Of a stretch of 64,000 nt of DNA, positions 2,487 to 53,217 are shown piece by piece (the first letter of the stretch is position 1; each line of letters opens with the position of its first letter). The stretch is from contig JAWZYV010013019.1 in the NCBI GenBank assembly GCA_038373885.1, forward strand, positions 682,001 to 746,000. Reading direction: 5' to 3'. The notes under the pieces were generated by a model. It was not told where the DNA came from and searched no databases. It worked only from the letters and a program-made list of their open reading frames with translations. This DNA comes from Cheiracanthium punctorium (lineage: Eukaryota; Arthropoda; Arachnida; Araneae; Cheiracanthiidae). Position numbers and translations under genes: made by a program.

Positions 2487-2492
2487 GAGATT
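2487..2492. repeat. Left 6-bp target-site duplication GAGATT
   Basis: GAGATT directly abuts the left end of the palindrome and is repeated in the same orientation at 16876-16881 directly after its right end. A direct repeat outside the two ends of an inverted structure is the expected trace of transposon integration. It would not arise from a simple inverted duplication or a fold-back read. Confidence 0.85.
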
Positions 2493-2666
2493 AGTAGTAG
2501 ATAAATGACAGTTCTGCTCAGGGGCAGCCCATGTTAATTGTGGGCAGCCGTGGGCAACTGTATAACTGCGTTCCCTGGGTCGAGAGAGAGAGAGAGGGGG
2601 CGTGGTCGGACCGGATGCTAAGACCGGATGTTCAAAGGGTTGATAAGAATTTTTTTTCCTTTTTTT

Positions 2667-2822
2667 CAAATAAGGGGACTTGTAATTTTTTTCAGATTTT
2701 CACATATTTTTGAAATAAGGGTACTTGGAAAAATTTTCAGATTGTGACATATTTTTCAAATAAGAGGACTTGGAAAAAATTTTCAGACTGTGATGCATTC
2801 TCTCATGAAAATAAGGGACTTT
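2667..2822. repeat. Subterminal 45-bp tandem repeat, left arm
   Basis: About 3.5 units of roughly 45 bp start near 2668, 2713, 2758 and 2807. Each has an AAATAAGGGNACTTGG core followed by an A/T-rich ATTTTCAGA block and a CATATTTTT block. The mirror array is at about 16549-16703. Repeats near transposon termini often serve as recombinase or terminal-protein binding sites; that role is inferred here. Confidence 0.7.
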
Positions 2823-3220
2823 GACATAATTTTAAATAAGCTATATGAATTAAACCTGAAATAAAAAATATTATTGTAATAAATGAGGACCCACCAGCCG
2901 CCCGGTAGAATTCGTCTACCGCCTCATTTCAAATAAAAATTCTTACTGTGCCTTTCCCCATCACGCTAGCCTCGCATGAATGGAGACAGGGCGTAGCACA
3001 GAGGATGCGTTGTTGTTTTTGTTTCTTTAAATAATAATTAACTATGTGGAGCAAAGAAATGAACAACATCCCCAGGAGGATTTAGTTTTCTTTACCATTT
3101 AGTAATAGAACCAATGCAAATTGAATAAATGCTGCTTAATACATACTTCTAATGTTTAGCTAATTTTTGTATACCGTTTAAGATTATAGCATATATTTAA
3201 TAAGTAACAGTTTACTAGAA

Positions 3221-3930
3221 TATTAAAGTAGGGTTTAGGATACCCATACATTTTCTACAAATTTCTTCTACTGTTAGGGAAGTGAGAAAATTATATCATA
3301 GAACGATTTTAGTACCTATAGTTTTTACAAATAATGATTTAGATAGTGTATGAACTTTTTTATCTAAACATTTTTTTTTTCTTAAGAGATTTTTACCCAA
3401 GTTTTAATTTTAAGTTAAATAAGTATTTTACCCAAGTTTTAATTTTAAGTTAATAAGTAATTTTACAACAAATATTTTTTTAACCAATAGTTTTAATTTT
3501 AAGTTAAATAATTTTACAACAAATTTTTTTAATTAATTTTACAACAAATATTTTTTTAATCAAGAGTTAATTTATTTTTTAACCAAGTTTTAATTTTAAG
3601 TTAAATAATTTTACAACAAATACATTTCTAAATTTATTTTTTTTACCAAGTTTTAATTTTAAGTAAATAATTAATTTTACAACAAATTTTTTTTAATCAA
3701 ATGTTTTTAATTTATCAAGAAAAAAAATTTAATCAAGTGTTTTTAATTTATCAAGAAAAAAATTTTAATCAAGAGTTTTAATTTTTTGTATACCGTATTT
3801 TTGTTAAGTAGCCGTTTAACATTAAAGTAGGATTTAGGATACCCATACATTTTCTACAAATTTAATCTACTGTTAGGCAAGTGAGAAAATTATACCATAG
3901 AAAGATTTTTACAAATAATGATATAGTCTT
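3221..3930. repeat. Duplicated block flanking an AT-rich tandem array, left arm
   Basis: A block of about 115 bp at 3221-3345 (containing GGATACCCATACATTTTCTA) is repeated in the same orientation at about 3822-3930. Between them, at about 3388-3785, lies an imperfect array built on TTTTAATTTTAAGTTAAATA and TTTTACAACAAAT units. The mirror image is at about 15440-16155. No coding potential is seen. Confidence 0.7.
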
Positions 3931-3935
3931 ATTTT

Positions 3936-4960
3936 CTATTGCGAGAAAATCACTTTACCCATATATCCCCCAAAACTCAAGTTTTTGTATACGAAATGCA
4001 TGAATACGCGTTAGATCCCCTTAGAAAGTCTTCCTACCAAGGCACCCCTCATCCTAAGCAGATACCCCCGCGTGCAGGTTTACCTTAAAGCACAAACAAA
4101 CAAAGTATTTATCTAAACATTTTTTCTTACCCACACATTTTTGATAAATCTTAGGCAGCGATTATACTAGTTTATATTTTCTATAGATCAATTAGAGAAA
4201 AAATTACAGTTTTAGTAATCCTACAAAATATTCTTACTGTATATCACAAGTAGAGTAACTTGATTTATAGAATTTCAATACGATACGAGTTAGATTGTTT
4301 ATGTGCAACACTCATTGCAGTTTGACTATGAAAGCATAATTTTATACATGCATTAATATTTTTAGAGGTATGCACTTAACCTATTTTATAGAAAGGTGAG
4401 CATAAACTTTTAGACTAGATAGTACTATTGTTAGAAAGTTGAACTATTGGAAATAAAAATTGAAGATCCGTTTTAGCACACTTGCATGTACATAAAATAT
4501 CTTTCATCTACTTAGATAGTTTAAATCACAAATCATTACTTAAACTAAAAAATACAAGGTTTTTACTTACGTGAAGGGACATCTTCGAGTCTCTGGACAA
4601 AGTACCAACATCTATACGGCTAGCAAGACCGGAAAATCGAATAATGATTTAAAATACATTATCCCTAATTCCCGGTCCAACTAGCACATGTTCATTAATT
4701 CTTAATCTTGGCTGAAAATATTAATAATATTTTGACACTAAAAACAAAATAACACATTTGAAGATATTAAACGCTTTAAAAGTACTTTTTTCTTATAACA
4801 ATTTATCAGATTCACAATGCTATTTTATGTAGGATAAAATTAGTTAGCAAGCGAAAATTTAATCTTAGTTAGAATTTACTGAAATACAAATACCATGCAT
4901 GCCTTATTTTCTATTTGGAGAAAGCCCTCAAACCCCAGTTTTTGTATACAAACTGCATAA
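3936..4960. repeat. Two copies of a 60-bp motif, left arm
   Basis: A motif of about 60 bp occurs at about 3936-4003 and 4898-4960 in the same orientation. It includes CTTATTTTCTATT, AAAC(T/C)C(A/C)AGTTTTTGTATAC and a GCAT run. The mirror pair lies at about 14401-14465 and 15363-15440. Conservation between two copies within one arm suggests a bound site or an old internal duplication. Confidence 0.55.
4571..4711 (-). other. Candidate 141-nt exon of an outward transcript, left arm (mirror of 14654-14794)
   Basis: Read on the minus strand, a 3' splice-like ATATTTTCAG precedes this segment and a strong 5' splice-like GTAAGT follows it. All three frames contain stops; one frame stays open for 20 codons and then ends at TAA. 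It could therefore be a terminal coding or a non-coding exon. Support is only the splice consensus. Confidence 0.2.
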
Positions 4961-5274
4961 AGTACTTCTACCGATAATGCTATTAATATTAATTACACTG
5001 GATTACCAACTTAAAATTTCGCAAAACACCAAAATACAGAAAAACATACATTAACAAAAAAATCACACTTAAAAGTACAACACATCAAAAGTGCAACTAT
5101 AAGAACCACATAATTATTTTCAATTAGAATTACGGTATCAACTTATATGTAACTAAAATAATAGAAAATATTACACTTACCCTATACTTGTACACGCGAG
5201 AGGTGAAAATAATAAAAATACATAATAATTCACAAAAGAATGATTGAAGTAAAATCCACGTGCCTGTGATATTG

Positions 5275-5363
5275 CTGATAACAGAAATTTAGAGATAAGA
5301 GAGTGCCTTGAGGCTCTACAGAGCCGGTACAATAAGAGTTGGCCAGTTTGCCGATAAGATAAA
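5275..5363. promoter_or_regulatory. GATA-motif cluster, distal, left arm
   Basis: Several GATAA/TTATC motifs occur within about 90 bp. The mirror of the cluster is at 14002-14090, next to a candidate 5' splice site (TAGG|GTAAGT) at 14184/14185. GATA clusters are common in arthropod promoters and enhancers; function here is inference. Confidence 0.25.
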
Positions 5364-5699
5364 ACCAGGGAGGGTGCTAGGGGTATGCAATTGGGGACAC
5401 GTGTTTCATTCTGCGTTCAAAAATGGGGACTTATGGATTAAGATCATGTTAGATTAAAGCCATTTCAATAAAAATCTATCCTTTTTGTAAACATGGGCAT
5501 TATATCCTAAATTAAAATATCAAAGTTAAGCTACAACGATTAATATATTTTACGTAGTTTAGGAAACTAATGAATCATTAAATTAATTTCTGTGAAACAA
5601 TTAGCAAAGATCATTGTACTAAAGCAAATTATTTTTGTTAAGTTTTGATAAATAACAGTAATAAATTATAGGCATTGCAGATGAATGAGTATTCACGTA

Positions 5700-6035
5700 T
5701 AAAATAGGTATTAAAATTATTGTTTAAAACAATTTTTAGAATAATAAACTAAAATTTTTATTTAATAAAGTCATAAACTAAAATTATTAATTAAAACTTG
5801 TTAATAAATTAAACATATCAAAATTTTTTTTTTATAGACTTAAATTTTACATAGACATCCTTTTAATAAATGCATAAACTAAACTTAGTTTAAAACAATT
5901 TTTTACAATAATAAACTAAAATTTTTATTTAATAAATTCATAAACTAAAACAATTTTTACAATAATAAACTAAAATTTTTTTAATAAAGTCATAAACTGA
6001 AATTATTAATGAAAACCTGTTAATAAACTAAACTG
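5700..6035. repeat. AT-rich tandem repeat (AATAATAAACTAAAATTTTT type), left arm
   Basis: Imperfect units built on AATAAACTAAAATTTTTATT and AAAGTCATAAACTAAAATTA recur about every 60-80 bp. The mirror array lies at about 13335-13665. No ORF is present. Confidence 0.6.
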
Positions 6036-6237
6036 ATTACTCTAAAAGATAGCTAATCACAACATATATCAGAAAAAATATAAGCAATTATAATACCTGA
6101 AAAATACCGGACAACACTCTTGTTGCATGCGGACAAAACATCGCTCAGCTCGGCTAAAGAATTCTTAGGTATCCGTTGCAGGAGAACTTACCTACGCCCA
6201 ACCTACAAACTCTACAAATTTAACGGCAACTGATTTT

Positions 6238-6276
6238 CTCTTATCAGGTATCACAGATCAGATAAGAGATAAGGAA
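6238..6276. promoter_or_regulatory. GATA-motif cluster upstream of the left AlkB-like gene
   Basis: TTATCAG, GATAAGA and GATAAGG lie within 40 bp, about 320 bp upstream of the ATG at 6598. The mirror is at 13098-13131. Adjacent E-box-like CACGTGAT motifs are also present. A proximal regulatory role is plausible but unproven. Confidence 0.3.
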
Positions 6277-6597
6277 GTGACATGCGCAGAAGACACGTGA
6301 TAGTGACGTGTGCAAATCTGTGTTGATTGAATATCCGGTAGGTTTCTGGCAGGATGTACATTTGCAGTGGGCAACTCTCTGTAACAGGCTAAGACAAGTT
6401 AGATGATGCAATATCTACTGGGTTGAGAAGTTTTAAGGTAGAGGGCGCTTGGGTAATCACGTGATTTTTTAAAGAATCAGTATAGAGACATTTTAGTTAG
6501 ATAAAGTGGTCAGGTGTGTGTTGCGAGACTCCCTTTACACTGTGTGCGCCTATACTTAAGACGTGTGTTTTAATTGATTTTTCGCCGAGTTTCAAAA

Positions 6598-8118
6598 ATG
6601 TGTTTGCTCTGAATACACTCCCGAGTTTTATACTCAAAGTGATGCTGATGTGTTGCTGCAAGAAATAATACAATTGCCTTTAGATGTAAAGCCTCTGCAA
6701 AGTATTGAAAAGAAAATTTCCCCGAGTTTTATACTGAAAGTGATGTTGACGTGCTACAGCAAGAATTGTTTCAATTACCCCTGCAAAGTAGTGAAAAGAA
6801 AATTTCCTCGACCCGTAAAGTAATTACTTTTGCTGATGAAGGAATCGATTACAGTTTACCTGGAGCAACAGTCTCTGTTTACTCTTGGATACCCATTTTG
6901 CAAAAAATACGTGAAGATCTACAGAAAGTGACAAATTATGAATTTAATATGGTGCAAGTGAACTTTGGCTCTGAAGAACAACCTAAAATTGAAGACGGCA
7001 ACTACGAAGATTTTAATCTAGACCTATCATCAGGTGTATGCATTCTAAGTTTTGGATCTAAACGAACTTTGGATTTTAAACCAGCGAACTGTGAAACCGC
7101 TACCATTAAATTAGAACATGGCTCAATGTGTAAGATATATCCCCCAACCAACAAACTTTTAACGCATGGTATTCCTTCTGAACCTTATGTGACAGACCCG
7201 CACATTAACCTAACATTTGCCAAAATGTACATTTATGAGCCTTCCCCGAAAAGGGCAAAGTTGGACAATTGGACGGACGATCTTTACCATAGCTTATATG
7301 CTTCTGTAAATAGTACATGGCACTTGGAAAGACTTATCTACGTTTCACTTCACGATGAAAGAACTGACTTGAAGATCCATATTAGACAATTTATTCAGAA
7401 TGCCCAATTAGACTATATACCAACCGGTCAGGGAGTCGTGATGAACCCTTCCACATGGATCGAATTTATTGTAAAACTATTAGATTTTAATATAGGTCAT
7501 AGCAATAGCTCTTTTATTTGTAATAATCAATTATCTGTATTTAATGATGATGGAAAATGCATCTTACAACAAATTTACAAAACCGCAGATTCATTCACGT
7601 TAAATCCAATTTCCTTAACACTTTTAAATGATCAAGTAAAAAAACTTTGCGAAATGAGAAATGAAATATTGGAATGCATTTTAAAAACGCTATATACGAC
7701 GACCCTGCCTCATTTAATTTTAAAATTAAAGCCGCAAAAATGTAACCGCGAACCCCATTGTAATTACGATGAGGCTAAACAACAATTAATGGATATAGTA
7801 CATCAGGAAATTTTTAAAAACATAGGCCGGGTTCAAGATCATTCTTCGCAAAGGATACATGCCTGTTCGAATAGATCACATATTGATGAGCGAGAGGGTC
7901 TTATAAGTAGTAAAGCATGGTTTACGGTTGACATGCCGTATATTGCAAGAGAGATATGCGAGAAAAAATGCACTTGTCATTATGACGGAGAATTTTTTTC
8001 AAACATTTTCATTGAAGACTATATGAAGTATCTTCAAAATGAGCTATTTAATTCATTTTTTCAACCGTTTTCAGATTTTGCGAATTCCAAGGATGACAAA
8101 ACATGTGTAATTATGTGA
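6598..8118 (+). pseudogene. Left-arm copy of the AlkB-like gene, 5' end frameshifted
   Basis: The mirror-image copy of the intact gene at 11254-12774. It starts with the same ATG (6598-6600), but an extra C around 6608 produces an in-frame TGA at 6610-6612 after four codons. A second lesion, one C missing in the run near 6719-6723, lies just before the second PEFYT motif. Downstream the reading frame is open from 6709 to the stop at 8116-8118, but its first in-frame ATG is 6949, inside the AlkB-like domain. The open frame begins after a TGA at 6706-6708. The remaining product differs from the right copy by one residue (Ala for Val in the QN(A/V)QLDY motif). It probably makes no full protein unless splicing or another start bypasses the damage. 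The two indels could also be consensus errors, because near-identical arms are hard to polish. Confidence 0.75.
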
Positions 8119-8315
8119 TGTTATTGGTGTATAACTAGTATTGCGATTGTAAAAAATATATTAAAACCATTGTGATTATGTAGAAAAAGTTTGCTTGCTT
8201 CTACAACAGTAAGATTTTACTGATTTGTGCATGATTAATTGTGGATTACACTTTGAAAAGTTATTATTTTCTTAATTGTGTAAATAGTTTGTGTAATTTA
8301 AAATATGTTTTTGTA

Positions 8316-8321
8316 AATAAA
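8316..8321 (+). terminator. Poly(A) signal AATAAA after the left gene copy
   Basis: AATAAA lies about 200 bp past the stop codon, followed by A/T-rich and TG-rich DNA (TTTTCTGTGTTTTC). This is a suitable cleavage and polyadenylation context for the gene pointing to the palindrome centre. Confidence 0.55.
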
Positions 8322-8339
8322 TAAGTTTAAACATGAAAA

Positions 8340-11040
8340 CTTTTCTGTGTTTTCTTTATGTGTATGTGCGTGTTGATTACTTGCAAAATAAAAATCTATT
8401 AAATAAAAAGTGGTAAAGTTAGCATACTTGGTCACGATTTAAGGTTCTCGTTTTTATACTTATCTTTTATACACTACAAGGTAGAAAGTTAGAAATTTAA
8501 CAAAATTTATTGAAGCATGTACTATGGAAACATTAATCTACTACATAGAAATAAAATGTTTTGATTAAAATCATAAACTTAAGTGTGATAGGTAAATTGT
8601 GTTACATGAGAATTCACAAAGTATTAATTTTTTTATAAAATGAACTTGGCTAAAAAAGTAAGTTTCCATAATTTTATAACTTAATCGATTTTACAGGTTT
8701 TTCAAAAATAAAGTTAAGTGAGATAAAGAAACTTAGTATTTTTAAATAAAGATTTTTTGAGGTATTCTTTAATGTAAAGATCTTACCACATTTTACTTGA
8801 AGTAACAGAATATTTTAAATCAGACACTATGTTTTTAAAACATCAGAGTATTAACTTAGCATATTTTTTATTAAGTAATGGGCTTGAATATTTTTATAAG
8901 AAATATCAACTAAGTGCACATATTACACATTTTACTGATTAAGATGGTTATGCTTACAAATTTTAAATAAATATGCTCTTACTTTTATACATGTTACTTG
9001 TTCAAACTAAGTGTACTTTTGATTTGTATACGTTTATGAGTTCTCATAAGTTATGAAATTATTTCTCGAAAGGAACTTAGCTATTAGAACTTTGTAAATT
9101 TTGTAGAAGTAGTATGCTTAACATGTTTTTCATGAAATGGATTTAAATTTGGTATAGAAATAATCAGTTATTTTTGCATAGATGTATAAACTTATCTTTA
9201 TGTAAACCATAACTAATTAAAAGTAACATAATTTATGTCTATACAAAGTGAGGGACTTAAACTATTTTTCAGAATTATCAAGTAAAGGATTTTACAAAAT
9301 ACTTAGTAAACTGCATTAATAGATTGTAAGTTGTAATTTTTTTCTGTTAGAAGTTTTGCACATTGCTATATTTTATGTTCTGATAAGTCGTTGAATATAT
9401 TCTTTAAATAAACTAACAGATCTGTACTTTGAAAATTTCATTGAAGTGTTGAACTTTGGTATTTTTCGAATGTTACGAACTTGATACATTTTTTCTGAAG
9501 TGCTAGATATGTGAAATTGTCTTTTTAGAAACATTGAATTATTCAACTTAGTACATTTCAGTTACTCTTTCAAGATAACGGACTTAGAATTTTTTTACAA
9601 ATAGCAAGCTAGTAACTTGCTAAACGTGCTTCTTGCAAATATTTTTAAATACTTAATTTATTATATTTTAATTTGTTTATTTCTTTTTAGTAGTTACAAC
9701 TTTGATAATTTTTAAGAACAGTATTTAAAAATATTTGCAAGAAGCACGTTTAGCAAGTTACTAGCTTGCTATTTGTAAAAAAATTCTAAGTCCGTTATCT
9801 TGAAAGAGTAACTGAAATGTACTAAGTTGAATAATTCAATGTTTCTAAAAAGACAATTTCACATATCTAGCACTTCAGAAAAAATGTATCAAGTTCGTAA
9901 CATTCGAAAAATACCAAAGTTCAACACTTCAATGAAATTTTCAAAGTACAGATCTGTTAGTTTATTTAAAGAATATATTCAACGACTTATCAGAACATAA
10001 AATATACCAATGTGCAAAACTTCTAACAGAAAAAAATTACAACTTACAATCTATTAATGCAGTTTACTAAGTATTTTGTAAAATCCTTTACTTGATAATT
10101 CTGAAAAATAGTTTAAGTCCCTCACTTTGTATAGACATAAATTATGTTACTTTTAATTAGTTATGGTTTACATAAAGATAAGTTTATACATCTATGCAAA
10201 AATAACTGATTATTTCTATACCAAATTTAAATCCATTTCATGAAAAACATGTTAAGCATACTACTTCTACAAAATTTACAAAGTTCTAATAGCTAAGTTC
10301 CTTTCGAGAAATAATTTCATAACTTATGAGAACTCATAAACGTATACAAATCAAAAGTACACTTAGTTTGAACAAGTAACATGTATAAAAGTAAGAGCAT
10401 ATTTATTTAAAATTTGTAAGCATAACCATCTTAATCAGTAAAATGTGTAATATGTGCACTTAGTTGATATTTCTTATAAAAATATTCAAGCCCATTACTT
10501 AATAAAAAATATGCTAAGTTAATACTCTGATGTTTTAAAAACATAGTGTCTGATTTAAAATATTCTGTTACTTCAAGTAAAATGTGGTAAGATCTTTACA
10601 TTAAAGAATACCTCAAAAAATCTTTATTTAAAAATACTAAGTTTCTTTATCTCACTTAACTTTATTTTTGAAAAACCTGTAAAATCGATTAAGTTATAAA
10701 ATTATGGAAACTTACTTTTTTAGCCAAGTTCATTTTATAAAAAAATTAATACTTTGTGAATTCTCATGTAACACAATTTACCTATCACACTTAAGTTTAT
10801 GATTTTAATCAAAACATTTTATTTCTATGTAGTAGATTAATGTTTCCATAGTACATGCTTCAATAAATTTTGTTAAATTTCTAACTTTCTACCTTGTAGT
10901 GTATAAAAGATAAGTATAAAACGAGAACCTTAAATCGTGACCAAGTATGCTAACTTTACCACTTTTTATTTAATAGATTTTTATTTTGCAAGTAATCAAC
11001 ACGCACATACACATAAAGAAAACACAGAAAAGTTTTCATG
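8340..11040. other. Gene-free inner part of both arms
   Basis: Between the two convergent poly(A) signals lies about 2.7 kb of AT-rich DNA, itself a perfect-looking inverted repeat around 9654-9719. No ORF of note on either strand. Transcription reading through the centre from either gene would produce an RNA able to fold into a very long hairpin with a 66-nt loop. Confidence 0.6.
9654..9719. other. 66-bp spacer at the palindrome centre
   Basis: The arms stop matching at 9653 and 9720. The unpaired segment is AT-rich and shows no motif. A short non-palindromic centre is typical of large stable inverted repeats. Confidence 0.85.
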
Positions 11041-11050
11041 TTTAAACTTA

Positions 11051-11056
11051 TTTATT
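11051..11056 (-). terminator. Poly(A) signal AATAAA after the right gene copy
   Basis: Reads AATAAA on the minus strand about 200 bp beyond the stop codon of the intact gene. It mirrors 8316-8321. Confidence 0.55.
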
Positions 11057-11253
11057 TACAAAAACATATTTTAAATTACACAAACTATTTACACAATTAA
11101 GAAAATAATAACTTTTCAAAGTGTAATCCACAATTAATCATGCACAAATCAGTAAAATCTTACTGTTGTAGAAGCAAGCAAACTTTTTCTACATAATCAC
11201 AATGGTTTTAATATATTTTTTACAATCGCAATACTAGTTATACACCAATAACA

Positions 11254-12774
11254 TCACATAATTACACATGTTTTGTCATCCTTGGAATTCGCAAAATCTG
11301 AAAACGGTTGAAAAAATGAATTAAATAGCTCATTTTGAAGGTACTTCATATAGTCTTCAATGAAAATGTTTGAAAAAAATTCTCCGTCATAATGACAAGT
11401 GCATTTTTTCTCGCATATCTCTCTTGCAATATACGGCATGTCAACCGTAAACCATGCTTTACTACTTATAAGACCCTCTCGCTCATCAATATGTGATCTA
11501 TTCGAACAGGCATGTATCCTTTGCGAAGAATGATCCTGAACCCGGCCTATGTTTTTAAAAATTTCCTGATGTACTATATCCATTAATTGTTGTTTCGCCT
11601 CATCATAATTACAATGGGGTTCACGGTTACATTTTTGCGGCTTTAATTTTAAAATTAAATGAGGCAGGGTCGTCGTATATAGCGTTTTTAAAATGCATTC
11701 CAATATTTCATTTCTCATTTCGCAAAGTTTTTTTACTTGATCATTTAAAAGTGTTAAGGAAATTGGATTTAACGTGAATGAATCTGCGGTTTTGTAAATT
11801 TGTTGTAAGATGCATTTTCCATCATCATTAAATACAGATAATTGATTATTACAAATAAAAGAGCTATTGCTATGACCTATATTAAAATCTAATAGTTTTA
11901 CAATAAATTCGATCCATGTGGAAGGGTTCATCACGACTCCCTGACCGGTTGGTATATAGTCTAATTGGACATTCTGAATAAATTGTCTAATATGGATCTT
12001 CAAATCAGTTCTTTCATCGTGAAGTGAAACGTAGATAAGTCTTTCCAAGTGCCATGTACTATTTACAGAAGCATATAAGCTATGGTAAAGATCGTCCGTC
12101 CAATTGTCCAACTTTGCCCTTTTCGGGGAAGGCTCATAAATGTACATTTTGGCAAATGTTAGGTTAATGTGCGGGTCTGTCACATAAGGTTCAGAAGGAA
12201 TACCATGCGTTAAAAGTTTGTTGGTTGGGGGATATATCTTACACATTGAGCCATGTTCTAATTTAATGGTAGCGGTTTCACAGTTCGCTGGTTTAAAATC
12301 CAAAGTTCGTTTAGATCCAAAACTTAGAATGCATACACCTGATGATAGGTCTAGATTAAAATCTTCGTAGTTGCCGTCTTCAATTTTAGGTTGTTCTTCA
12401 GAGCCAAAGTTCACTTGCACCATATTAAATTCATAATTTGTCACTTTCTGTAGATCTTCACGTATTTTTTGCAAAATGGGTATCCAAGAGTAAACAGAGA
12501 CTGTTGCTCCAGGTAAACTGTAATCGATTCCTTCATCAGCAAAAGTAATTACTTTACGGGTCGAGGAAATTTTCTTTTCACTACTTTGCAGGGGTAATTG
12601 AAACAATTCTTGCTGTAGCACGTCAACATCACTTTCAGTATAAAACTCGGGGGAAATTTTCTTTTCAATACTTTGCAGAGGCTTTACATCTAAAGGCAAT
12701 TGTATTATTTCTTGCAGCAACACATCAGCATCACTTTGAGTATAAAACTCGGGAGTGTATTCAAGCAAACACAT
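11254..12774 (-). CDS. AlkB-like fold protein with NLS and C-terminal CaaX box (506 aa)
   Basis: I use the ATG at 12774; the open frame extends eight codons further but only to a TTG. Residues 8-41 and 42-70 repeat a PEFYT(Q/E)SDxDVL element resembling the opening helix of AlkB enzymes. Residues about 42-210 follow the AlkB/ALKBH2 pattern: FADEGIDY (78-85), an FNMVQVNF strand (116-123), a CILSFGSKR strand (148-156), LEHGS (172-176), THGIP with the conserved His (190) and INLTF (203-207). The family's HxD iron-binding pair is absent (the region reads EDGNYED). The first 2OG-binding Arg before NLTF is His and the second is Ala, so classical dioxygenase activity is doubtful. PSPKRAKLD (215-223) is a Myc-like nuclear localisation motif. 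Residues 224-502 are unrecognised, with Cys/His clusters (CNREPHC, CEKKCTCH). The protein ends in CVIM, a farnesylation-type CaaX box. The fold assignment is from pattern recognition; the function is unknown. Confidence 0.75.
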   Translation of the reverse strand: MCLLEYTPEFYTQSDADVLLQEIIQLPLDVKPLQSIEKKISPEFYTESDVDVLQQELFQLPLQSSEKKISSTRKVITFADEGIDYSLPGATVSVYSWIPILQKIREDLQKVTNYEFNMVQVNFGSEEQPKIEDGNYEDFNLDLSSGVCILSFGSKRTLDFKPANCETATIKLEHGSMCKIYPPTNKLLTHGIPSEPYVTDPHINLTFAKMYIYEPSPKRAKLDNWTDDLYHSLYASVNSTWHLERLIYVSLHDERTDLKIHIRQFIQNVQLDYIPTGQGVVMNPSTWIEFIVKLLDFNIGHSNSSFICNNQLSVFNDDGKCILQQIYKTADSFTLNPISLTLLNDQVKKLCEMRNEILECILKTLYTTTLPHLILKLKPQKCNREPHCNYDEAKQQLMDIVHQEIFKNIGRVQDHSSQRIHACSNRSHIDEREGLISSKAWFTVDMPYIAREICEKKCTCHYDGEFFSNIFIEDYMKYLQNELFNSFFQPFSDFANSKDDKTCVIM

Positions 12775-13097
12775 TTTTGAAACTCGGCGAAAAATCAATT
12801 AAAACACACGTCTTAAGTATAGGCGCACACAGTGTAAAGGGAGTCTCGCAACACACACCTGACCACTTTATCTAACTAAAATGTCTCTATACGGATTCTT
12901 TAAAAAATCACGTGATTACCCAAGCGCCCTCTACCTTAAAACTTTCTCAACCCAGTAGATATTGCATCATCTAACTTGTCTTAGCCTGTTACAGAGAGTT
13001 GCCACTCAATGTACATCCTGCCAGAAACCTACCGGATATTCAATCAACACAGATTTGCACACGTCACTATCACGTGTCTTCTGCGCATGTCACTTCC

Positions 13098-13131
13098 TTA
13101 TCTCTTATCTGATCTGTGATACCTGATAAGA
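13098..13131. promoter_or_regulatory. GATA-motif cluster upstream of the intact AlkB-like gene
   Basis: CTTATCTCTTATCTGATC followed by CTGATAAGAG lies about 325 bp upstream of the ATG at 12774 and next to a CACGTG E-box. A strong 5' splice-like sequence (GGCGTAG|GTAAGT) follows at about 13176 on the plus strand. The region could be a divergent promoter for the gene and an outward transcript. This is inference from motifs only. Confidence 0.3.
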
Positions 13132-13334
13132 GAAAATCAGTTGCCGTTAAATTTGTAGAGTTTGTAGGTTGGGCGTAGGTAAGTTCTCCTGCAACGGATA
13201 CCTAAGAATTCTTTAGCCGAGCTGAGCGATGTTTTGTCCGCATGCAACAAGAGTGCTGTCCGGTATTTTTCAGGTATTATAATTGCTTATATTTTTTCTG
13301 ATATATGTTGTGATTAGCTATCTTTTAGAGTAAT

Positions 13335-13665
13335 CAGTTTAGTTTATTAACAGGTTTTCATTAATAATTTCAGTTTATGACTTTATTAAAAAAATTTTAG
13401 TTTATTATTGTAAAAATTGTTTTAGTTTATGAATTTATTAAATAAAAATTTTAGTTTATTATTGTAAAAATTGTTTTAAACAATTAGTTTATGCATTTAT
13501 TAAAAGGATGTCTATGTAAAATTTAAGTCTATAAAAAAAAATTTTTATATGTTTAATTTATTAACAAGTTTTAATTAATAATTTTAGTTTATGACTTTAT
13601 TAAATAAAAATTTTAGTTTATTATTCTAAAAATTGTTTTAAACAATAATTTTAATACCTATTTTA
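13335..13665. repeat. AT-rich tandem repeat, right arm
   Basis: Mirror of 5700-6035: imperfect units based on AAAAATTTTAGTTTATTATT and TTTTAGTTTATGACTTTATT. No coding potential. Confidence 0.6.
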
Positions 13666-14001
13666 TACGTGAATACTCATTCATCTGCAATGCCTATAAT
13701 TTATTACTGTTATTTATCAAAACTTAACAAAAATAATTTGCTTTAGTACAATGATCTTTGCTAATTGTTTCACAGAAATTAATTTAATGATTCATTAGTT
13801 TCCTAAACTACGTAAAATATATTAATCGTTGTAGCTTAACTTTGATATTTTAATTTAGGATATAATGCCCATGTTTACAAAAAGGATAGATTTTTATTGA
13901 AATGGCTTTAATCTAACATGATCTTAATCCATAAGTCCCCATTTTTGAACGCAGAATGAAACACGTGTCCCCAATTGCATACCCCTAGCACCCTCCCTGG
14001 T

Positions 14002-14090
14002 TTTATCTTATCGGCAAACTGGCCAACTCTTATTGTACCGGCTCTGTAGAGCCTCAAGGCACTCTCTTATCTCTAAATTTCTGTTATCAG
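14002..14090. promoter_or_regulatory. GATA-motif cluster, distal, right arm
   Basis: TTATCTTATCGG, CTCTTATCTC and GTTATCAG occur within about 90 bp, followed 95 bp later by TAGG|GTAAGT. This is a possible start region for an outward-directed transcript. It mirrors 5275-5363. Confidence 0.25.
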
Positions 14091-14400
14091 CAATATCACA
14101 GGCACGTGGATTTTACTTCAATCATTCTTTTGTGAATTATTATGTATTTTTATTATTTTCACCTCTCGCGTGTACAAGTATAGGGTAAGTGTAATATTTT
14201 CTATTATTTTAGTTACATATAAGTTGATACCGTAATTCTAATTGAAAATAATTATGTGGTTCTTATAGTTGCACTTTTGATGTGTTGTACTTTTAAGTGT
14301 GATTTTTTTGTTAATGTATGTTTTTCTGTATTTTGGTGTTTTGCGAAATTTTAAGTTGGTAATCCAGTGTAATTAATATTAATAGCATTATCGGTAGAAG

Positions 14401-15440
14401 TACTTTATGCAGTTTGTATACAAAAACTGGGGTTTGAGGGCTTTCTCCAAATAGAAAATAAGGCATGCATGGTATTTGTATTTCAGTAAATTCTAACTAA
14501 GATTAAATTTTCGCTTGCTAACTAATTTTATCCTACATAAAATAGCATTGTGAATCTGATAAATTGTTATAAGAAAAAAGTACTTTTAAAGCGTTTAATA
14601 TCTTCAAATGTGTTATTTTGTTTTTAGTGTCAAAATATTATTAATATTTTCAGCCAAGATTAAGAATTAATGAACATGTGCTAGTTGGACCGGGAATTAG
14701 GGATAATGTATTTTAAATCATTATTCGATTTTCCGGTCTTGCTAGCCGTATAGATGTTGGTACTTTGTCCAGAGACTCGAAGATGTCCCTTCACGTAAGT
14801 AAAAACCTTGTATTTTTTAGTTTAAGTAATGATTTGTGATTTAAACTATCTAAGTAGATGAAAGATATTTTATGTACATGCAGTATACTAAAACGGATCT
14901 TCAATTTTTATTTCCAATAGTTCAACTTTCTAACAATAGTACTATCTAGTCTAAAAGTTTATGCTCACCTTTCTATAAAATAGGTTAAGTGCATACCTCT
15001 AAAAATATTAATGCATGTATAAAATTATGCTTTCATAGTCAAACTGCAATGAGTGTTGCACATAAACAATCTAACTCGTATAGTATTGAAATTCTATAAA
15101 TCAAGTTACTCTACTTGTGATATACAGTAAGAATATTTTGTAGGATTACTAAAACTGTAATTTTTTCTCTAATTGATCTATAGAAAATATAAACTAGTAT
15201 AATCGCTGCCTAAGATTTATCAAAAATGTGTGGGTAAGAAAAAATGTTTAGATAAATACTTTGTTTGTTTGTGCTTTAAGGTAAACCTGCACGCGGGGGT
15301 ATCTGCTTAGGATGAGGGGTGCCTTGGTAGGAAGACTTTCTAAGGGGATCTAACGCGTATTCATGCATTTCGTATACAAAAACTTGAGTTTTGGGGGATA
15401 TATGGGTAAAGTGATTTTCTCGCAATAGAAAATAAGACTA
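14401..15440. repeat. Two copies of a 60-bp motif, right arm
   Basis: GTATACAAAAACT(G/T) plus a G-rich stretch and AATAGAAAATAAG occur at about 14401-14465 and 15363-15440. They mirror 3936-4960 of the left arm. Confidence 0.55.
14654..14794 (+). other. Candidate 141-nt exon of an outward transcript, right arm
   Basis: Preceded by a 3' splice-like ATATTTTCAG and followed by CAC|GTAAGT. All frames contain a stop; one reads 20 codons before TAA. It could pair with an upstream exon ending at 14184. Only splice consensus supports it, and the near-identity of the arms gives no independent conservation test. Confidence 0.22.
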
Positions 15441-16155
15441 TATCATTATTTGTAAAAATCTTTCTATGGTATAATTTTCTCACTTGCCTAACAGTAGATT
15501 AAATTTGTAGAAAATGTATGGGTATCCTAAATCCTACTTTAATGTTAAACGGCTACTTAACAAAAATACGGTATACAAAAAATTAAAACTCTTGATTAAA
15601 ATTTTTTTTCTTGATAAATTAAAAACACTTGATTAAATTTTTTTTTCTTGATAAATTAAAAACATTTGATTAAAAAAAATTTGTTGTAAAATTAATTATT
15701 TACTTAAAATTAAAACTTGGTAAAAAAAATAAATTTAGAAATGTATTTGTTGTAAAATTATTTAACTTAAAATTAAAACTTGGTTAAAAAATAAATTAAC
15801 TCTTGATTAAAAAAATATTTGTTGTAAAATTAATTAAAAAAAATTTGTTGTAAAATTATTTAACTTAAAATTAAAACTATTGGTTAAAAAAATATTTGTT
15901 GTAAAATTACTTATTTAACTTAAAATTAAAACTTGGGTAAAATACTTATTTAACTTAAAATTAAAACTTGGGTAAAAATCTCTTAAGAAAAAAAAAAATG
16001 TTTAGATAAAAAAGTTCATACACTATCTAAATCATTATTTGTAAAAACTATGGGTACTAAAATCGTTCTATGATATAATTTTCTCACTTCCCTAACAGTA
16101 GAAGAAATTTGTAGAAAATGTATGGGTATCCTAAACCCTACTTTAATATTCTAGT
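15440..16155. repeat. Duplicated block and AT-rich tandem array, right arm
   Basis: Mirror of 3221-3930. Two copies of the GATACCCATAC block flank an array of TTAACTTAAAATTAAAACTT and ATTTGTTGTAAAATTA units (about 15585-15990). Confidence 0.7.
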
Positions 16156-16548
16156 AAACTGTTACTTATTAAATATAGGCTATAATCTTAAACGGTATAC
16201 AAAAATTAGCTAAACATTAGAAGTATGTATTAAACAGCATTTATTCAATTTGCATTGGTTCTATTACTAAATGGTAAAGAAAACTAAATCCTTCTGGGGA
16301 TGTTGTTCATTTCTTTGCTCCACATAGTTAATTATTATTTAAAGAAACAAAAACAACAACGCATCCTCTGTGCTACGCCCTGTCTCCATTCATGCGAGGC
16401 TAGCGTGATGGGGAAAGGCACAGTAAGAATTTTTATTTGAAATGAGGCGGTAGACGAATTCTACCGGGCGGCTGGTGGGTCCTCATTTAATTACAATAAT
16501 ATTTTTTATTTCAGGTTTAATTCATATAGCTTATTTAAAATTATGTCA

Positions 16549-16703
16549 AAGTCCCTTATTTTCATGAGAGAATGCATCACAGTCTGAAAATTTTTTCCAA
16601 GTCCTCTTATTTGAAAAATATGTCACAATCTGAAAATTTTTCCAAGTACCCTTATTTCAAAAATATGTGAAAATCTGAAAAAAATTACAAGTCCCCTTAT
16701 TTG
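16549..16703. repeat. Subterminal 45-bp tandem repeat, right arm
   Basis: Mirror of 2667-2822; units contain CCAAGT(C/A)CNCTTATTT and CTGAAAATTTTT. It lies about 170 bp inside the right terminus. Confidence 0.7.
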
Positions 16704-16875
16704 AAAAAAGGAAAAAAATTCTTATCAACCCTTTGAACATCCGGTCTTAGCATCCGGTCCGACCACGCCCCCTCTCTCTCTCTCTCGACCCAGGGAACGC
16801 AGTTATACAGTTGCCCACGGCTGCCCACAATTAACATGGGCTGCCCCTGAGCAGAACTGTCATTTATCTACTACT

Positions 16876-16881
16876 GAGATT
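16876..16881. repeat. Right 6-bp target-site duplication GAGATT
   Basis: Direct copy of 2487-2492, immediately outside the CTACTACT end. Confidence 0.85.
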
Positions 16882-17433
16882 CAATCAAGAAATACATTCA
16901 TTATAAAATATTTTTCAATTTAGTTGCCTTCTGATTAGTGGTCCTTTTTTTTATAGCATTTTTAAAGTGGTACTTAAATTATAATCACCCCGTAAAAAGA
17001 AGCAGCTGACTAATAAGTCCTTATTATATAATGACTTTTTTTTCCCCTCCTTAAAAAATGACATTGTATTAAAAGTTCTTGTTGTTCTGTAAAGCCTGCA
17101 GGTGCTAAATGCAACACCTGCAGCAAAGCAAACTGTTATAACACTATTATCCTGCTAAATAGGATGCCATGAACGTTAATACATGAAGTTGCTTGCATTT
17201 TTTTATGTATAAATTCAAGCAAGCTGATTACCAAAGTTAATTTTCTACTAACTTTATACTACTTCTGCTGTGCTGTTACATTTCACTATATATTCATATT
17301 ATATAAAAATAAAACTATGCAGTTTTATAGAGAAACTATTTTGAAACATCTATGGATTGTGGGGGGATGTCTTTATATTAGCGAAATCTAATCGATTATG
17401 TAATCTATTCCTATTCTGTAATTTCTGTTCTTT
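16882..17433. other. Gene-free DNA beyond the palindrome
   Basis: AT-rich and no ORF. A small perfect hairpin (CTGCAGGTG / CACCTGCAG, 10-nt loop) lies at 17096-17123. I see nothing else. Confidence 0.45.
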
Positions 17434-17829
17434 TTAACCCTTTAACGCGCAGTGTTCCCGCTCTTGGAACACCAAACTCTGACGTTTTGACTGTTGCCAG
17501 TCACGAAGAACAGATTTGATTTCTCTAAAAATTGTTGCATGTGACATAGCTCCACGAGAATCCTTTACTTTTTAGCACGTCATTTCCCGTTAAAAAAAAA
17601 AATGTCACGATTATCTTTAACAGCAGTGACATTTTTTGAAATGTGGAAGAATGCGAGAACAGCTGGACAGATTGCCCAATGCTGAAAAAGGGGCCAAAAA
17701 AGGGTCTCTAGATCTGTGGCACGCGATGAACGTTTCGATCGTCCGCCATCTTGCTAGTAGTTAAGTCGAGCGATGGCATCGGCTGCCCTTTTTTCAGCAT
17801 TGCGAAAGGGTTGCGCCTCAAAAGGTTAA
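17434..17829 (+). mobile_element. piggyBac-type MITE, copy 1
   Basis: Bounded by TTAA at 17434-17437 and 17826-17829, with imperfect inverted ends CCCTTTAACGCGC and GCGCCTCAAAAGG. TTAA duplications with CCCTTT ends are the piggyBac signature. It shares long stretches with 23766-24269 and 38407-38935, but one of the two internal inverted arms seen in copy 3 is deleted, leaving only TCTCTAGATCTGTGGCACGC and its following part. No transposase. Confidence 0.8.
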
Positions 17830-18296: not shown

Positions 18297-18771
18297 TACA
18301 GGTATATATCTAGCACGTATATATCTAAATTGTTTCAACAAAATATTATGGGAGGTAGGACACATAATAAGGAATCAGAATCAGTAGCAATGTGGGGTCA
18401 AAAACGTTGTCTTCCTGTAGCTGTTAATAATCACTTTGGAACGGGTGCTGAAGCAACAGTGAACTTTCCGACCATTGTTTGTCAAAAGCTAACGTATTTT
18501 TCTCAGAAAACATGTGAGTAAAATTCGTAGTTTATTAAATTCTACTTCATTTCTTAAATGGGATTTTTGGAGACAAGCCCATTGTATACGAAATTTGCTT
18601 AAGAAATTTGACAAACACTTCAACACTTTTCCTAAAGTGATTATTAGCGGCTACATGAAGACAACGTTTTTGACCCCCACATTGCTGTGTGATTCTCATT
18701 CCTTATTATGTGCTCTACCTCCCATAACATTTTGTTGAAACGATTTATCATACCCATGTATATACCCTGTA
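18297..18771. mobile_element. Fold-back MITE with TA ends
   Basis: Ends CAGGTATATAT and ATATACCCTG are flanked by TA (18297-18298, 18770-18771). Inside, inverted arms of about 110 bp at about 18331-18440 and 18630-18745 share GGGAGGTAG(A)GCACATAATA and GTCAAAAACGTTGTCTTC blocks. It is probably a mariner-type non-autonomous element. The two 74-77-codon ORFs here lie within the inverted arms and are not genes. Confidence 0.7.
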
Positions 18772-23035: not shown

Positions 23036-23769
23036 ATGTCAAGCCTTCAGAATTTTTAGAATACTTCTTTATAAGCTGTACTATACACCGCAATAAATAA
23101 GAATGTCTATCAGGTACGAAACTGTAAGGGAAAAAAAAAAAAAAAAAAATTTTTATCGAAAATGTAGGATGTCATTCTTCTAAAATTCTGCTGTGCAACG
23201 TCATGTTGAAGAATTTTTTCAGAAAGTTTCATGAAGGACACGGCTGTTTCATTTATTATGGTGCGTAGTACAGCTTATAAAGCATCATCCTGAATTTTTT
23301 CGAGTCCCTGACGCGATTAGTTTATTTTCCTTTGCGTATAAAGTCCTTGAGAGAGATTTCGTTTCTTCCAATTGAAAATAATGTAACTTTCGAATAGCCC
23401 TTTAAAAAATTTAATTGAGAATCGCAAAAAAATTTAAATGTCTCTTTACAAGTTGCACCGTGAACTGACAATGAACTTATAGGAGTTACTAAACTGCCAG
23501 GGGGGAAAAAAAAGCTAAACATACTGAATTTCATGATATTTACAAAGATGGGTAATTCCTCGGCTCATTTTTGAAGACGATTTTTGTGCTTTTGAATTTT
23601 TCCTGAAAGTTCCACGACACATGCGGCTTTATTGTTAGTGTCAGTCCATAATGAATAGGGTGAAGATGCATTATTCATTTTTTCGAATTTTTAACATCAT
23701 TGGTTCGTTTTTAAAGCTGTTTTTAAATGTCCTGTGACGACGATCGCTCTTCAGGTGGCACACTCTTAA
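23036..23769. repeat. Fold-back repeat of the 'AAGCTGTACTA' family
   Basis: Inverted arms TTATAAGCTGTACTATACAC (near 23070) and GTAGTACAGCTTATAAAGC (near 23265) form a fold-back. Related sequence lies in reverse at about 41482-41860 and within 50336-50749. The right end CACTCTTAA reaches the TTAA shared with the piggyBac-type MITE that starts at 23766. Probably another TTAA-targeting MITE family, diverged. Confidence 0.5.
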
Positions 23770-24269
23770 CCCTTTGAGGCGCAACCCTTTCCCAATGGTG
23801 AAAAAAGGGCAGCCGTTGCCATCGCTCGACTTAACTACCAACAAAATGGCGGTTTGGATGCGGATTTGGCGGTTTGGTGCAAGATGGCGGATGGATTTTT
23901 TGACGCACAGCCAGCTGCGTCAAAAAAGGGGTATCTAGATCTGTGGCAAGCGATGAACGTTTCGATCGTCCGCCATCTTGATGGTAGTTAAGTCGAGCGA
24001 TGGCAACGGCTGCCTTTTTTTCAGCATTGGGCAATCTATGCAGCTGTTCTCGCATTCTTCCATTTTTCAGCAGATGTCAGTGCTGTTAAAAATAATCGTG
24101 ACATTTTTTTTACGGGAAATGACGTGCTAAAAAATGAAGGATTCTCGTGGAGCTATGTCACCCGTAATTATTTTTTATAAAAATCAAATCTAGTCTTCCT
24201 GTCTGGCAACAGTCAAAACGTCAGAGTTTGGTGTTCCCAAAGCGGGAACACTGCGCGTTAAAGTGTTAA
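23766..24269 (-). mobile_element. piggyBac-type MITE, copy 2
   Basis: TTAA at 23766-23769 and 24266-24269, with ends CCCTTTGAGGCGCA and TGCGCGTTAAAGTG. It is reverse-oriented relative to copies 1 and 3. Internal inverted segments around AGATCTGTGGCA(A/C)GCGATG and GCCATCGCTCGACTTAACTA are partly retained. The 74-codon ORF on the minus strand is part of this repeat. Confidence 0.8.
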
Positions 24270-27400: not shown

Positions 27401-27578
27401 GCATTTTAATTTAATGAAACTGGAAATATGTTATGAAAGGACCGTCGAATATTTTGAATTTGCGTATTCATGTTTTATTTATCTCAATTATTGTTAAAGT
27501 TTTGTAACTGTCAAAATGTGCACGATTTTTTCCATTTAGACTTATACAAAATGCGCTTGTCAAAGTCTAATATGCTAA

Positions 27579-28210
27579 TACAATAAAGTACCGTTTATAC
27601 GTCTCTCGAGGAACCGATCTGAAACGACGTATAAATGAAACATGAACAAACAACGTTGATTATTACATGTTTAACGCTGAAATTAAAATTTATGTAAATA
27701 TAATAATTGTATGTTTTTTAAGGTACTAGTAAATTACTTCATATTAGTTTTTACCTGAAAACAATATCTAAATTAAAATATGAAGTAAAATAAATTCTCA
27801 TAAAAGTGAAACAAATCCTACCTGATGCGCTGATTGCCTTTAATAATTAGTTGCAGCATTATGGATTGAATTAAGTTTATGAAATGGCTTTTATACCCTC
27901 GTGTTCTGTTAGGCAAAGTTCTAAACTTATTAATATAGTCGACTGCGTCTTTAAAAAAAGGTTGTTAAACGCACAATTCTTCATTTGATGTTCTATTTGG
28001 ACAAGTTTCTTCCTAAAGGGTAAAGTAAAGACACAGACAAAATTTTCAAAATTAAGTAAAGTTTAAAAGGATGTATAACCGATATTGCGCGTCGTATACA
28101 CGAGGCATTTTTGCATTAAAATAAATAGAATTGAATCGGGACTTCAGGAAAATGACGTATAAATGTGAACGTCGTATAATTGAGAAACGTATGAACTGTG
28201 CTTTACTGTA
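27579..28210. mobile_element. Mariner-type MITE 'CAGTAAAGCACCG' family, copy 2
   Basis: TA-flanked; ends CAATAAAGTACCGTTTATAC and TATGAACTGTGCTTTACTG, with GAAACGACGTATAAATGAAA near the start. Closely related to copy 3 over its length, including TTACCTGAAAACAATATCTA and TCGGGACTTNA blocks. Confidence 0.8.
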
Positions 28211-28801
28211 TTTCTTTAAAAAGCCTTTATCTTTGATATTGTTTACAATTAATCTTTTTAAGATTCAAATCGATGTAAAATAAAAAAGAAGATATCCTCA
28301 TTTATAATGAACAGATGCTTACTGAAGTCAGTTGATTTTTTTCTCTCCTCTCATTTAATTTATAAAATTTGTACTTCGAGGGGGGGGGTCTGATTGCTTA
28401 GGCTCGTGAAAAATAACATTGTGTTGCTAACTACTGTTTGTTGTCTAGAGTTGGTGGTTTTAATGATTTTCTCCATCCAAAAATCCTTTTATACTCTCTG
28501 AAAAGACCGAATAAATTGCTCGTGCAGCGGAAACACATTGAAACTTTTATAGTTCTGTCCTCAGAGAGCGGAAATTGTCATTTATTATTTTGCATTTATT
28601 TCCCATCTCCCCACCTCCTCTCTCTCTTTTTTCTTTCTTTTTTTTAAGTGTTTATTTCAGATTCATTGATGTAGTATTAGTGCAGTGTAAAATTTGTTTT
28701 GTAAGACCTAAAAGGGAGTAGAGGATTTTTTTTTTTTTTCACGTTCTTAATAAATAATTAATACGTATTTGAACTCTCTTATTTGTTTTTTTCTTTTATA
28801 A
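28211..28801. other. Gene-free DNA between two MITE copies
   Basis: AT-rich with a G9 tract near 28380 and T-rich stretches. A 69-codon ORF without an ATG start is not supported. Confidence 0.4.
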
Positions 28802-29546
28802 TACAGCAAAGCACCGTTTATACGTCTTTCAAGGGACCGATCTGAAACGACGTATAAATGAAACATTAATAAACAGCTTTGATTATTACACGTGTAACTC
28901 AACTAAAGCAAATTTACGTAAATAAAATAATTGTATTAAGATACAAGTAAATTACTTCATACTAGTTTTTACATGAAAACAATATCTAAATTAAAACGTA
29001 GAGTAAAATAAAAAATTCTCATAAAAGTGAAACAATTCCTACCTTTATTGTATAATATTTAGTACTGCATACATTTAGTATTACTGTAATATACATTGAG
29101 TACCATGAGGGGATTTTTGTTCATACAGACATTGAATTTAATAAATCATTTATAGTGGTCTGATGTGTCGATTGTCTTTGATTGTTAATAACAGCATTAT
29201 GGATTGAATTAAATTGATGAAATGTCTTTTGTGTTCTGACAGGCAAAGTAAGTTCTAAACTTTTCAATATAGTCAATTGCGTCTTTGAAAGTAGGTTGTT
29301 AAACGTAGGACCCTTCATTTGACTTTCTATATGGGAAAAATTTCTCCCTAAATAGAAAAATAATGGCAAAGACAAAATTTTCGAAATTTAGGAAAAGTTT
29401 AAAACGACGTATAATCAATATTGTGCGTCGTATAAACAAAGCGTTTTTGCATTAAAATAGATAGGAATGAATCGGGACTTAACGAAAACGACGTATAAAT
29501 GTAAAAGTCGTATAAATGAGAAACGTATAAACGGTGCTTTACTGTA
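28802..29546. mobile_element. Mariner-type MITE 'CAGTAAAGCACCG' family, copy 3
   Basis: TA-flanked; ends CAGCAAAGCACCGTTTATAC and GTATAAACGGTGCTTTACTG. About 743 bp, same orientation as copy 2 and only 591 bp from it. No transposase ORF. Confidence 0.85.
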
Positions 29547-29620
29547 CTACTTTTTTGTGTGTAAGTGATTTCCCTCAAATAATTGATGTATTTTTAATGC
29601 ATGTAATTCTTTCTTTAAAG

Positions 29621-37999: not shown

Positions 38000-38289
38000 T
38001 TTTGCCTGTTACTCCAAAGACAGTTATACCCACCAAAAGAAAAGACTGGTATTTCAACTGAATGAAGTATTTATTTGCCTCCCTTCCCCCGAACTAAATA
38101 AATCAATTATAAAATTCGTGGAACGGCGGCTGCATAAGACAAAGAAAGGTTCTCTCCCCTGACCTTCCCTTCCCATGTCTTCCAGCACATTTAAATCAAT
38201 GCGTGGGGTGTGTAATGATTAAATTAAAAAGTCCCAGATCGCTCGTACGGAGATGCTGCCGAAGAATCCATGGCCCAGTTCCAGGTTGA
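38000..38289. other. Unassigned DNA
   Basis: No gene or repeat with clear boundaries. Confidence 0.35.
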
Positions 38290-38410
38290 GAAAGACACGG
38301 AGAATAAAACCAAATTAAAAAATACACCACTTTCTTTAATGATGAACCTGTTAATTCTGATAAAGATCTGCCTTTTTTCTTTTATCCTTCCCCCTCCCTT
38401 TTTTTTTTAA
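38290..38410 (+). repeat. Left copy of a 121-bp direct repeat flanking a MITE
   Basis: Starts GAAAGACACGGAGAATAAAA and ends in a T-tract plus AA. It is repeated at 38936-39058 with a few substitutions. The TTAA at its end is the insertion target of the MITE that separates the two copies. Confidence 0.8.
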
Positions 38411-38935: not shown

Positions 38936-39058
38936 GAAAGACTCGGAGAATAAAACCAAATAAAAAAATGCACCACTTTCTTTAATGATGAACCTGTTAA
39001 TTCTTATAAAAGATCTTCCTTTTTTTCTTTTATCCTCTCTCTCCCCCCCTTTTTTTAA
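38936..39058 (+). repeat. Right copy of the 121-bp direct repeat
   Basis: GAAAGACTCGGAGAATAAAA to the T-tract before AAATTCCTG. Near-identical to 38290-38410, so the MITE sits exactly at the junction of a local tandem duplication. Confidence 0.8.
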
Positions 39059-53149: not shown

Positions 53150-53217
53150 GAATGGTGGCAAAGAAGTAAAATTGTTCACAACATTTGAAAGCCTTTCAGT
53201 GTAAAAACCGCATAGTT

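Follow-up and report, generated by a model that had tools for sequence, protein, structure and literature searches.

How can a transposon consist of nothing but its own inverted repeat? This question is raised by a 14.4-kb element of the spider Cheiracanthium punctorium, found in a stretch of 64,000 nucleotides (positions 682,001 to 746,000 of the forward strand of contig JAWZYV010013019.1, assembly GCA_038373885.1; hereafter the window). The element is a near-perfect palindrome between 6-bp target site duplications (TSDs), and it is probably a heritable, non-autonomous snap-back derivative of a Polinton/Maverick. Derivation from a Polinton, and mobilization by it, are very probable. The snap-back origin can be accepted with good confidence, and homogenization of the two arms in an extrachromosomal hairpin stage is slightly favored. 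The features of the element, in positions of the window, are the following.

2487–2492, forward strand: left TSD, GAGATT (self-comparison and flank check)
2493–9653, forward strand: left arm, 7161 bp (self-comparison)
2493–2513, forward strand: terminus AGTAGTAGATAAATGACAGTT, starting with a repeated AGT triplet
2493–3079, forward strand: arm positions 1–587, homologous to the PolB-side end of Polintons at about 90–92% DNA identity (comparison with a 16.4-kb Polinton)
3391–3784, forward strand: A+T-rich tandem repeats of the left arm
5891–6002: further tandem array of the left arm
6709–8118, forward strand: AlkB-like and PC4-like gene of the left arm, 469 open codons, frame broken upstream
9654–9719, no strand: asymmetric spacer (loop) of 66 bp, recognizable in other copies, in both orientations
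9720–16875, reverse strand: right arm, 7156 bp, mirroring the left arm (self-comparison)
11254–12798, reverse strand: AlkB-like and PC4-like gene of the right arm, open frame of 514 amino acids
16288–16875, reverse strand: Polinton-end homology of the right arm, with an approximate inner limit set by symmetry with the tested 2493–3079
16876–16881, forward strand: right TSD, GAGATT (self-comparison and flank check)
18323–18747, forward strand: repeat representing the paralogous empty site of the palindrome copy C8361

Compared with its own reverse complement, the interval 2493–16875 gives a single inverted match with 99.2% identity. Between the arms there are 24 substitutions, counted up to arm position 7155, and 16 indels; the longest stretch that they share without a difference is 1336 bases. 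The preliminary description of this DNA proposed arms of about 7.16 kb around a 66-bp spacer with less than 1% difference, and outer boundaries meeting a direct GAGATT duplication; the measured arms and the duplications at 2487–2492 and 16876–16881 agree with both. Its view that the inverted repeats are the entire element is right for this palindrome family. It also stated that every gene is present twice. There are indeed two DNA copies of the gene, but only one open frame, because the left-arm frame is broken near arm position 4227. The window is without a match to Rfam at the gathering score.

Further copies, for which an assembly search had been proposed, were found. The genome searched comprises 2.53 Gb in 15,171 contigs. 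Every search scored the best 40 candidates only, so the loci seen are those closest to the query, and the candidate numbers do not give copy numbers. With the terminus probe, 40 matches (best 40 of 1747 first-look candidates) were obtained on 26 contigs, with 14 inverted pairs and 12 single matches. Inspection of every pair showed 12 palindromes and two non-palindromic elements (C7221 and C9796). The 12 palindromes are that of the window, eight of about 14 kb, and those of C14997 (8.4 kb), C2318 (10 kb), and C8128 (3.1 kb). In the ten elements compared, the first 30 bases of the terminus recur at each end with 0–6 edits. A probe adjoining the center gave 78 matches at 39 loci (best 40 of 1109 candidates), and both arms are present at all 39; loci other than the fetched ones were viewed over the central 751 bp per side, so "both arms" here refers to the surroundings of the center and not to full length. 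A complete plus/minus pair is seen at 33 of the 39 loci, exactly 72 bp apart in 24 of the 33. The remaining six are two-armed too, as seen in fetched sequences (C6723, C5706, C15093, and C1752) or by both-strand matches (C14545 and C1966). The palindrome family is large.

Integration of the whole palindrome as one unit, already claimed in the preliminary description, is supported by the 6-bp duplications and by two paralogous empty sites. Exact 6-bp duplications are present at 13 of the 15 palindromes with both ends examined and at 2/2 Polintons. C2992 is the 14th duplicated palindrome if one extra AGT is allowed at its left end. The flanks of C8361 join over one 6-bp target, with one mismatch, in the related repeat at 18323–18747 of the window. 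Those of C6953 meet in L006, where 42 gap bases are close by. Both empty sites are paralogous, not allelic. A coincidental GAGATT pair was considered and dropped, since other loci show the same structure between different flanks.

The two non-palindromic elements with the terminus of the palindrome, C7221 and C9796, are 16.4-kb Polintons. C7221 contains rve, chromodomain, and Pox_A32-type ATPase matches above the Pfam cut-offs, and Peptidase_C5 (adenovirus-protease) and double-jelly-roll matches below them. The Polinton PolB was assigned by homologues: the best 120 of 7938 relatives include proteins named "DNA polymerase" and adintovirus PolB, and the four top named relatives among these 120 are from Stegodyphus, Larinioides, Araneus, and Uloborus. 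A PDB sequence search with the capsid-like frame gave no match. The integrase matches (best 40 of 219 candidates) are 99–100% identical over the full query, one per contig, and none of them is in an inverted pair. At least part of the Polinton family is therefore young. Integrase and PolB-end matches (best 40 of 219 and best 40 of 183 candidates, respectively) are 13.5–14.9 kb apart on twenty contigs. Both Polintons, C7221 (L011/L012) and C9796 (L023/L024), also carry an AlkB-PC4 gene, with the iron-ligand motif kept. A literature search for Polinton and AlkB found no paper on Polinton AlkB genes, judged by title.

The palindrome arm is collinear with the PolB-side half of the Polinton, with PolB left out. 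Arm positions 1–587 are about 90–92% identical to the DNA of the Polinton PolB-side end. Arm positions 4118–4157 and the AlkB gene match the Polinton from its position 7326 on, in the same orientation. When nine Polinton frames were compared by tblastn with the left arm of the window and the C2992 arm, AlkB alone was found at E ≤ 1e-3. The palindrome does not show the gene set of an autonomous Polinton/Maverick (PolB, rve integrase, packaging ATPase, cysteine protease, and capsid), and it has its ends in common with a seemingly intact Polinton of this genome, as expected of a non-autonomous derivative. A 6-bp TSD is the rule of the Polinton/Maverick family, and 13 of the 15 palindromes follow it strictly. 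A 5'-AG terminus is another mark of the family, and AGTAGTAG at the palindrome ends agrees with it. The shared ends and the duplication length suggest that the movement of the palindrome depends on Polinton proteins. The earlier statement that no known transposon class has this architecture stands, as far as the literature searched shows, for the fully palindromic form, but not for the element as an orphan class, since it very probably derives from the Polinton/Maverick of the same genome.

The AlkB-PC4 frame is open in both arms of 8/8 fetched 14-kb palindromes (485–523 amino acids). The ratio of nonsynonymous to synonymous divergence (dN/dS) is 0.27, as the ratio of means over 36 pairs among nine left-arm copies, and the gene is under purifying selection in the palindromes. 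The window protein scores 24.9 bits against the Pfam dioxygenase family, below the cut-off of 31.2 bits, and matches ALKBH2 structures at E of about 2e-16. The PC4-like match is weak throughout (E 0.028 and 0.033). The HRD of ALKBH2 and the HKD of the Polinton protein line up with GNY in the palindrome protein, in which H also replaces the later R of ALKBH2. P0001, 53% identical to the palindrome protein, has the Y and the later H, with the first H kept. The HxD residues are iron ligands, and the residues compared here bind iron and 2-oxoglutarate. The palindrome protein lacks the HxD iron ligands of an active AlkB dioxygenase. PC4 binds single-stranded DNA; speculatively, a hairpin replicon would be well served by a protein with affinity for hairpin or single-stranded DNA. 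The AlphaFold model of the AlkB-PC4 protein has a mean pLDDT of 35, too poor for use. Among the viral contigs searched for relatives, five stretches fit a pattern, and none of them encodes a relative.

Two palindromes, C8128 and C9435, consist of Polinton sequence itself. The PolB-end probe gave three inverted pairs (best 40 of 183 candidates, 37 contigs). In C8128, a 3.06-kb palindrome, the last quarter of PolB (its C-terminus) and the terminus are mirrored, and the arms are 99.1% alike. It is about 98% like the C9796 Polinton, or 96.5% in the outermost 320 bp. Its arms reach positions 1581 and 1534 of the C9796 Polinton, and the junction, inside PolB, has a 7-base overlap and a loop of about 47 nucleotides. 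Such a junction is what would be expected if a 3' end folded back on short homology, and it would fit template switching in replication as the palindrome source. The left flank of C8128 (L033) is inside the AlkB gene of another palindrome copy, and the right flank has no match among the loci tried.

C9435 is a 17.8-kb palindrome with PolB in both arms, the duplication CATGAC, and its center beyond the AlkB gene. A 488-amino-acid AlkB-PC4 frame is open in both arms, while the PolB frame is open through the left-arm piece read and interrupted in the right arm. Identity between its arms is 99.3% over the central 3.5 kb and 99.8% over the middle 5.8 kb; over the outer 1.35 kb it is 97.6%, with 1 mismatch and 32 gap bases. 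Near the center it is 98–99% identical to C7221. C14432 belongs to the amplified family, with an AlkB frame about 95% identical to that of the window, and is chimeric: its outer 1.8 kb or so is Polinton, and the junction is mirrored in both arms, which are 98.9% identical and flanked by the duplication TACGCT. One genome end, duplicated in inverted orientation around a short loop, characterizes a snap-back genome, and this form is seen in the window, C8128, and C9435.

Two shorter palindromes, C14997 (L029/L030) and C2318 (L031/L032), have a second center where the AlkB gene starts, around arm position 4338, and lack the body of this gene. This second center is loop-free in C14997 and within about 16 bp in C2318. 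Their interpretation as new snap-backs was dropped, because a deletion across the center between self-complementary 14-mers yields the same product, and neither is counted as support for the snap-back origin.

The origin of the palindrome could be considered as follows. Protein-primed replication would start from the PolB-side terminus, and the nascent strand would stop early. Its 3' end would fold back at a short homology and copy itself to the same terminus. Second-strand synthesis would then give a self-complementary molecule with an identical origin and integrase site at each end, so that the Polinton polymerase and integrase could replicate and insert it in trans. The arms would later have lost PolB and retained the derived AlkB-PC4 protein. 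In each extrachromosomal cycle, the strand might fold to a hairpin in which one arm provides the template for copying or correcting the other, and the arms would therefore stay alike while the copies diverge. Terminal repeats serve sliding or jumping back in protein-primed replication, and the AGT end repeats resemble them. The extra AGT of C2992 would fit slippage.

A further step is possible, although we propose it tentatively. The palindrome may be a heritable replicon with a one-ended hairpin as its true genome, that is, a 7-kb half-Polinton closed by the loop, which becomes the 14-kb palindrome when double-stranded. It might have passed through many insertion cycles in this form, recombining with its helper and mirroring the changes to the other arm, with a catalytically dead AlkB-PC4 DNA-binding protein in place of the polymerase.

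The likeness between the arms bears on the hairpin stage. When copies are compared in 600-bp blocks, the best local matches range over 85.8–99.8% identity in a mosaic pattern. Within copies, the arms are 99.3–99.99% identical, with gaps excluded and the center included. In a tree of 18 arms of nine copies (arm positions 4250–7100), the own arms pair in 8/9 copies with support from 83/99 to 100/100, one pair being identical. The own partner arm is at least as close as that of any other copy in 456 of 494 arm-windows, and the deviation is small in the other 38. Of 194 large gaps counted at copy level, 180 occur in both arms, and some of the remaining 14 are shifted by a single base. The mirrored chimeras and mirrored gaps require that at some stage one arm serve as template for the other, and a hairpin stage would provide for this naturally. 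The spacer loop is recognizable in 8/9 14-kb copies, altered in C6953, and present in both orientations, which fits descent from one palindromization.

Several points weigh against the snap-back origin and hairpin homogenization proposed here. Neither a replication intermediate nor a terminal protein nor RNA was observed. C8128 is a palindrome without a 6-bp duplication. Given this and its unmatched right flank, its insertion site is perhaps rearranged. C9435 is just 90–94% identical to C7221 between the PolB end and AlkB, and its parent is therefore another member of the same Polinton family. It is also the only one with two arms among 39 contigs of the Polinton mid-region (best 40 of 86 candidates), so conversion of a Polinton to a palindrome is rare. 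The window arms are mutually nearest but lie in an unresolved fork of the tree. Arm differences with both states in other copies are present in the window (10), C215 (22), C5243 (24), C9022 (10), C8332 (2), and C8361 (1). With such shared differences in six copies, not every cycle can have left the two arms identical. The arms can come from different sources, and homogenization is strong but not absolute. The two gene copies of the window, with dS 0.022 and dN 0.001, also agree with differences that came from lineages under selection and not from neutral decay following insertion. Chromosomal gene conversion may have contributed to the arm likeness, and it is a rival for the homogenization step only.

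As the main cause of this likeness, chromosomal gene conversion after insertion, as in Y-chromosome palindromes, is conceivable but unlikely. It is known between palindrome arms (PMC7999016), and the differences with both states elsewhere could be conversion tracts from other loci. However, deletions or gaps in one arm persist in C5706, C15093, and C1752, and in L009 and L017; the palindrome is older than the insertion, and C2992, C10558, and C6953 have just 2–5 private differences.

Recombination between two head-to-head Polinton insertions, followed by amplification, could likewise account for the mirrored body and its two PolB-side ends. Host DNA and target sites without a match would then be expected at the center, but a short asymmetric loop is found, and the C8128 junction, with its short overlap and loop, lies inside PolB. 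This course is quite improbable.

A foldback-type cut-and-paste DNA transposon, in which the terminal repeats grew inward until nothing remained between them, has hardly any likelihood. Long inverted repeats with internal tandem repeats are described as typical of foldbacks such as Tetris (PMC4079207) and Galileo (PMC4168063), and the window palindrome shares them, with such arrays in its arm. The repeats of Tetris are reported as up to 1,735 bp, around a middle domain described as without apparent coding capacity (PMC4079207), and Galileo is assigned to the P superfamily (PMC4168063). In the palindrome no distinct middle domain was seen, and only the 66-bp spacer separates the arms. The palindrome agrees with the Polinton of the same genome in terminus, duplication length, and gene order, its arms hold a selected gene, and Polinton sequence itself forms palindromes. 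Tetris and Galileo have no half-Polinton origin.

An assembly or library artefact, such as inverted chimeric reads, is very unlikely and has next to no probability: hairpin read-through can create false inverted repeats, but the flanks differ, the 6-bp duplications match, the asymmetric spacer recurs, and arm-specific substitutions and paralogous empty sites are present.

Among the known systems compared, the palindromic defective genomes of adenoviruses arise in protein-primed replication, with one genome end duplicated in inverted orientation. They arise as by-products during lytic growth and do not form a family of genomic repeats. The snap-back genomes of adeno-associated virus (AAV) resemble the palindrome in being self-complementary half-genomes with one type of end, symmetric or looped, and are reported to replicate with helper functions (PMC8235507). 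AAV snap-backs are described as subgenomic particles of a virus population (PMC8235507), whereas the palindrome is integrated, present in many copies, and encodes a selected gene. With the self-synthesizing Polinton/Maverick transposons (PMC6431247), the palindrome has in common the terminus, the 6-bp duplication, the position of AlkB-PC4, and the PolB-side end. Unlike them, it is mirror-symmetric over its whole length and has no detectable Polinton frame in the arm besides AlkB. Fungal mitochondrial invertron plasmids are linear integrating replicons with a terminal protein, for which panhandle-shaped intermediates are invoked (PMC1864894). Their long inverted repeats are described as flanking mitochondrial DNA (PMC1864894), not the element itself as in the palindrome. 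In the literature searched, no palindromic Polinton, fully palindromic transposon, or amplified coding palindromic derivative of a Polinton was found; subscription papers and preprints were mostly outside this search, so absence from print is unproven.

A review describes long palindromes as endangering the stability of genomes (PMC7999016). According to the same source, replication in bacteria, yeast, and primate cells stalled at inverted Alu repeats separated by a 12-bp spacer, and those with a 52-bp spacer caused frequent stalling in bacteria only (PMC7999016). By analogy, the 66-bp loop may be part of what renders the element tolerable.

Elsewhere in the window, an open frame of 358 codons at 53170–54246 on the forward strand is of the Tc1/mariner transposase type (DDE_3 and HTH_Tnp_Tc3_2). 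Dispersed repeats, about 87–97% alike and in both orientations, are located at 17425–17829, 23764–24269, and 38284–39056. A direct duplication, about 80–84% alike, comprises 27576–28217 and 28799–29553.

Snap-back genomes have been seen as by-products of replication, and here one has apparently become a successful, inherited transposon family. A single genome contains the putative helper, two palindromes built of its sequence, a chimera with a mirrored junction, and the amplified family. To our knowledge, the replication of Polintons has never been observed directly. This genome makes Polinton replication, the birth of palindromes, and the maintenance of arm likeness testable. Once the shared arm differences are removed, the divergence between arms might act as a clock, as the divergence of long terminal repeats does.

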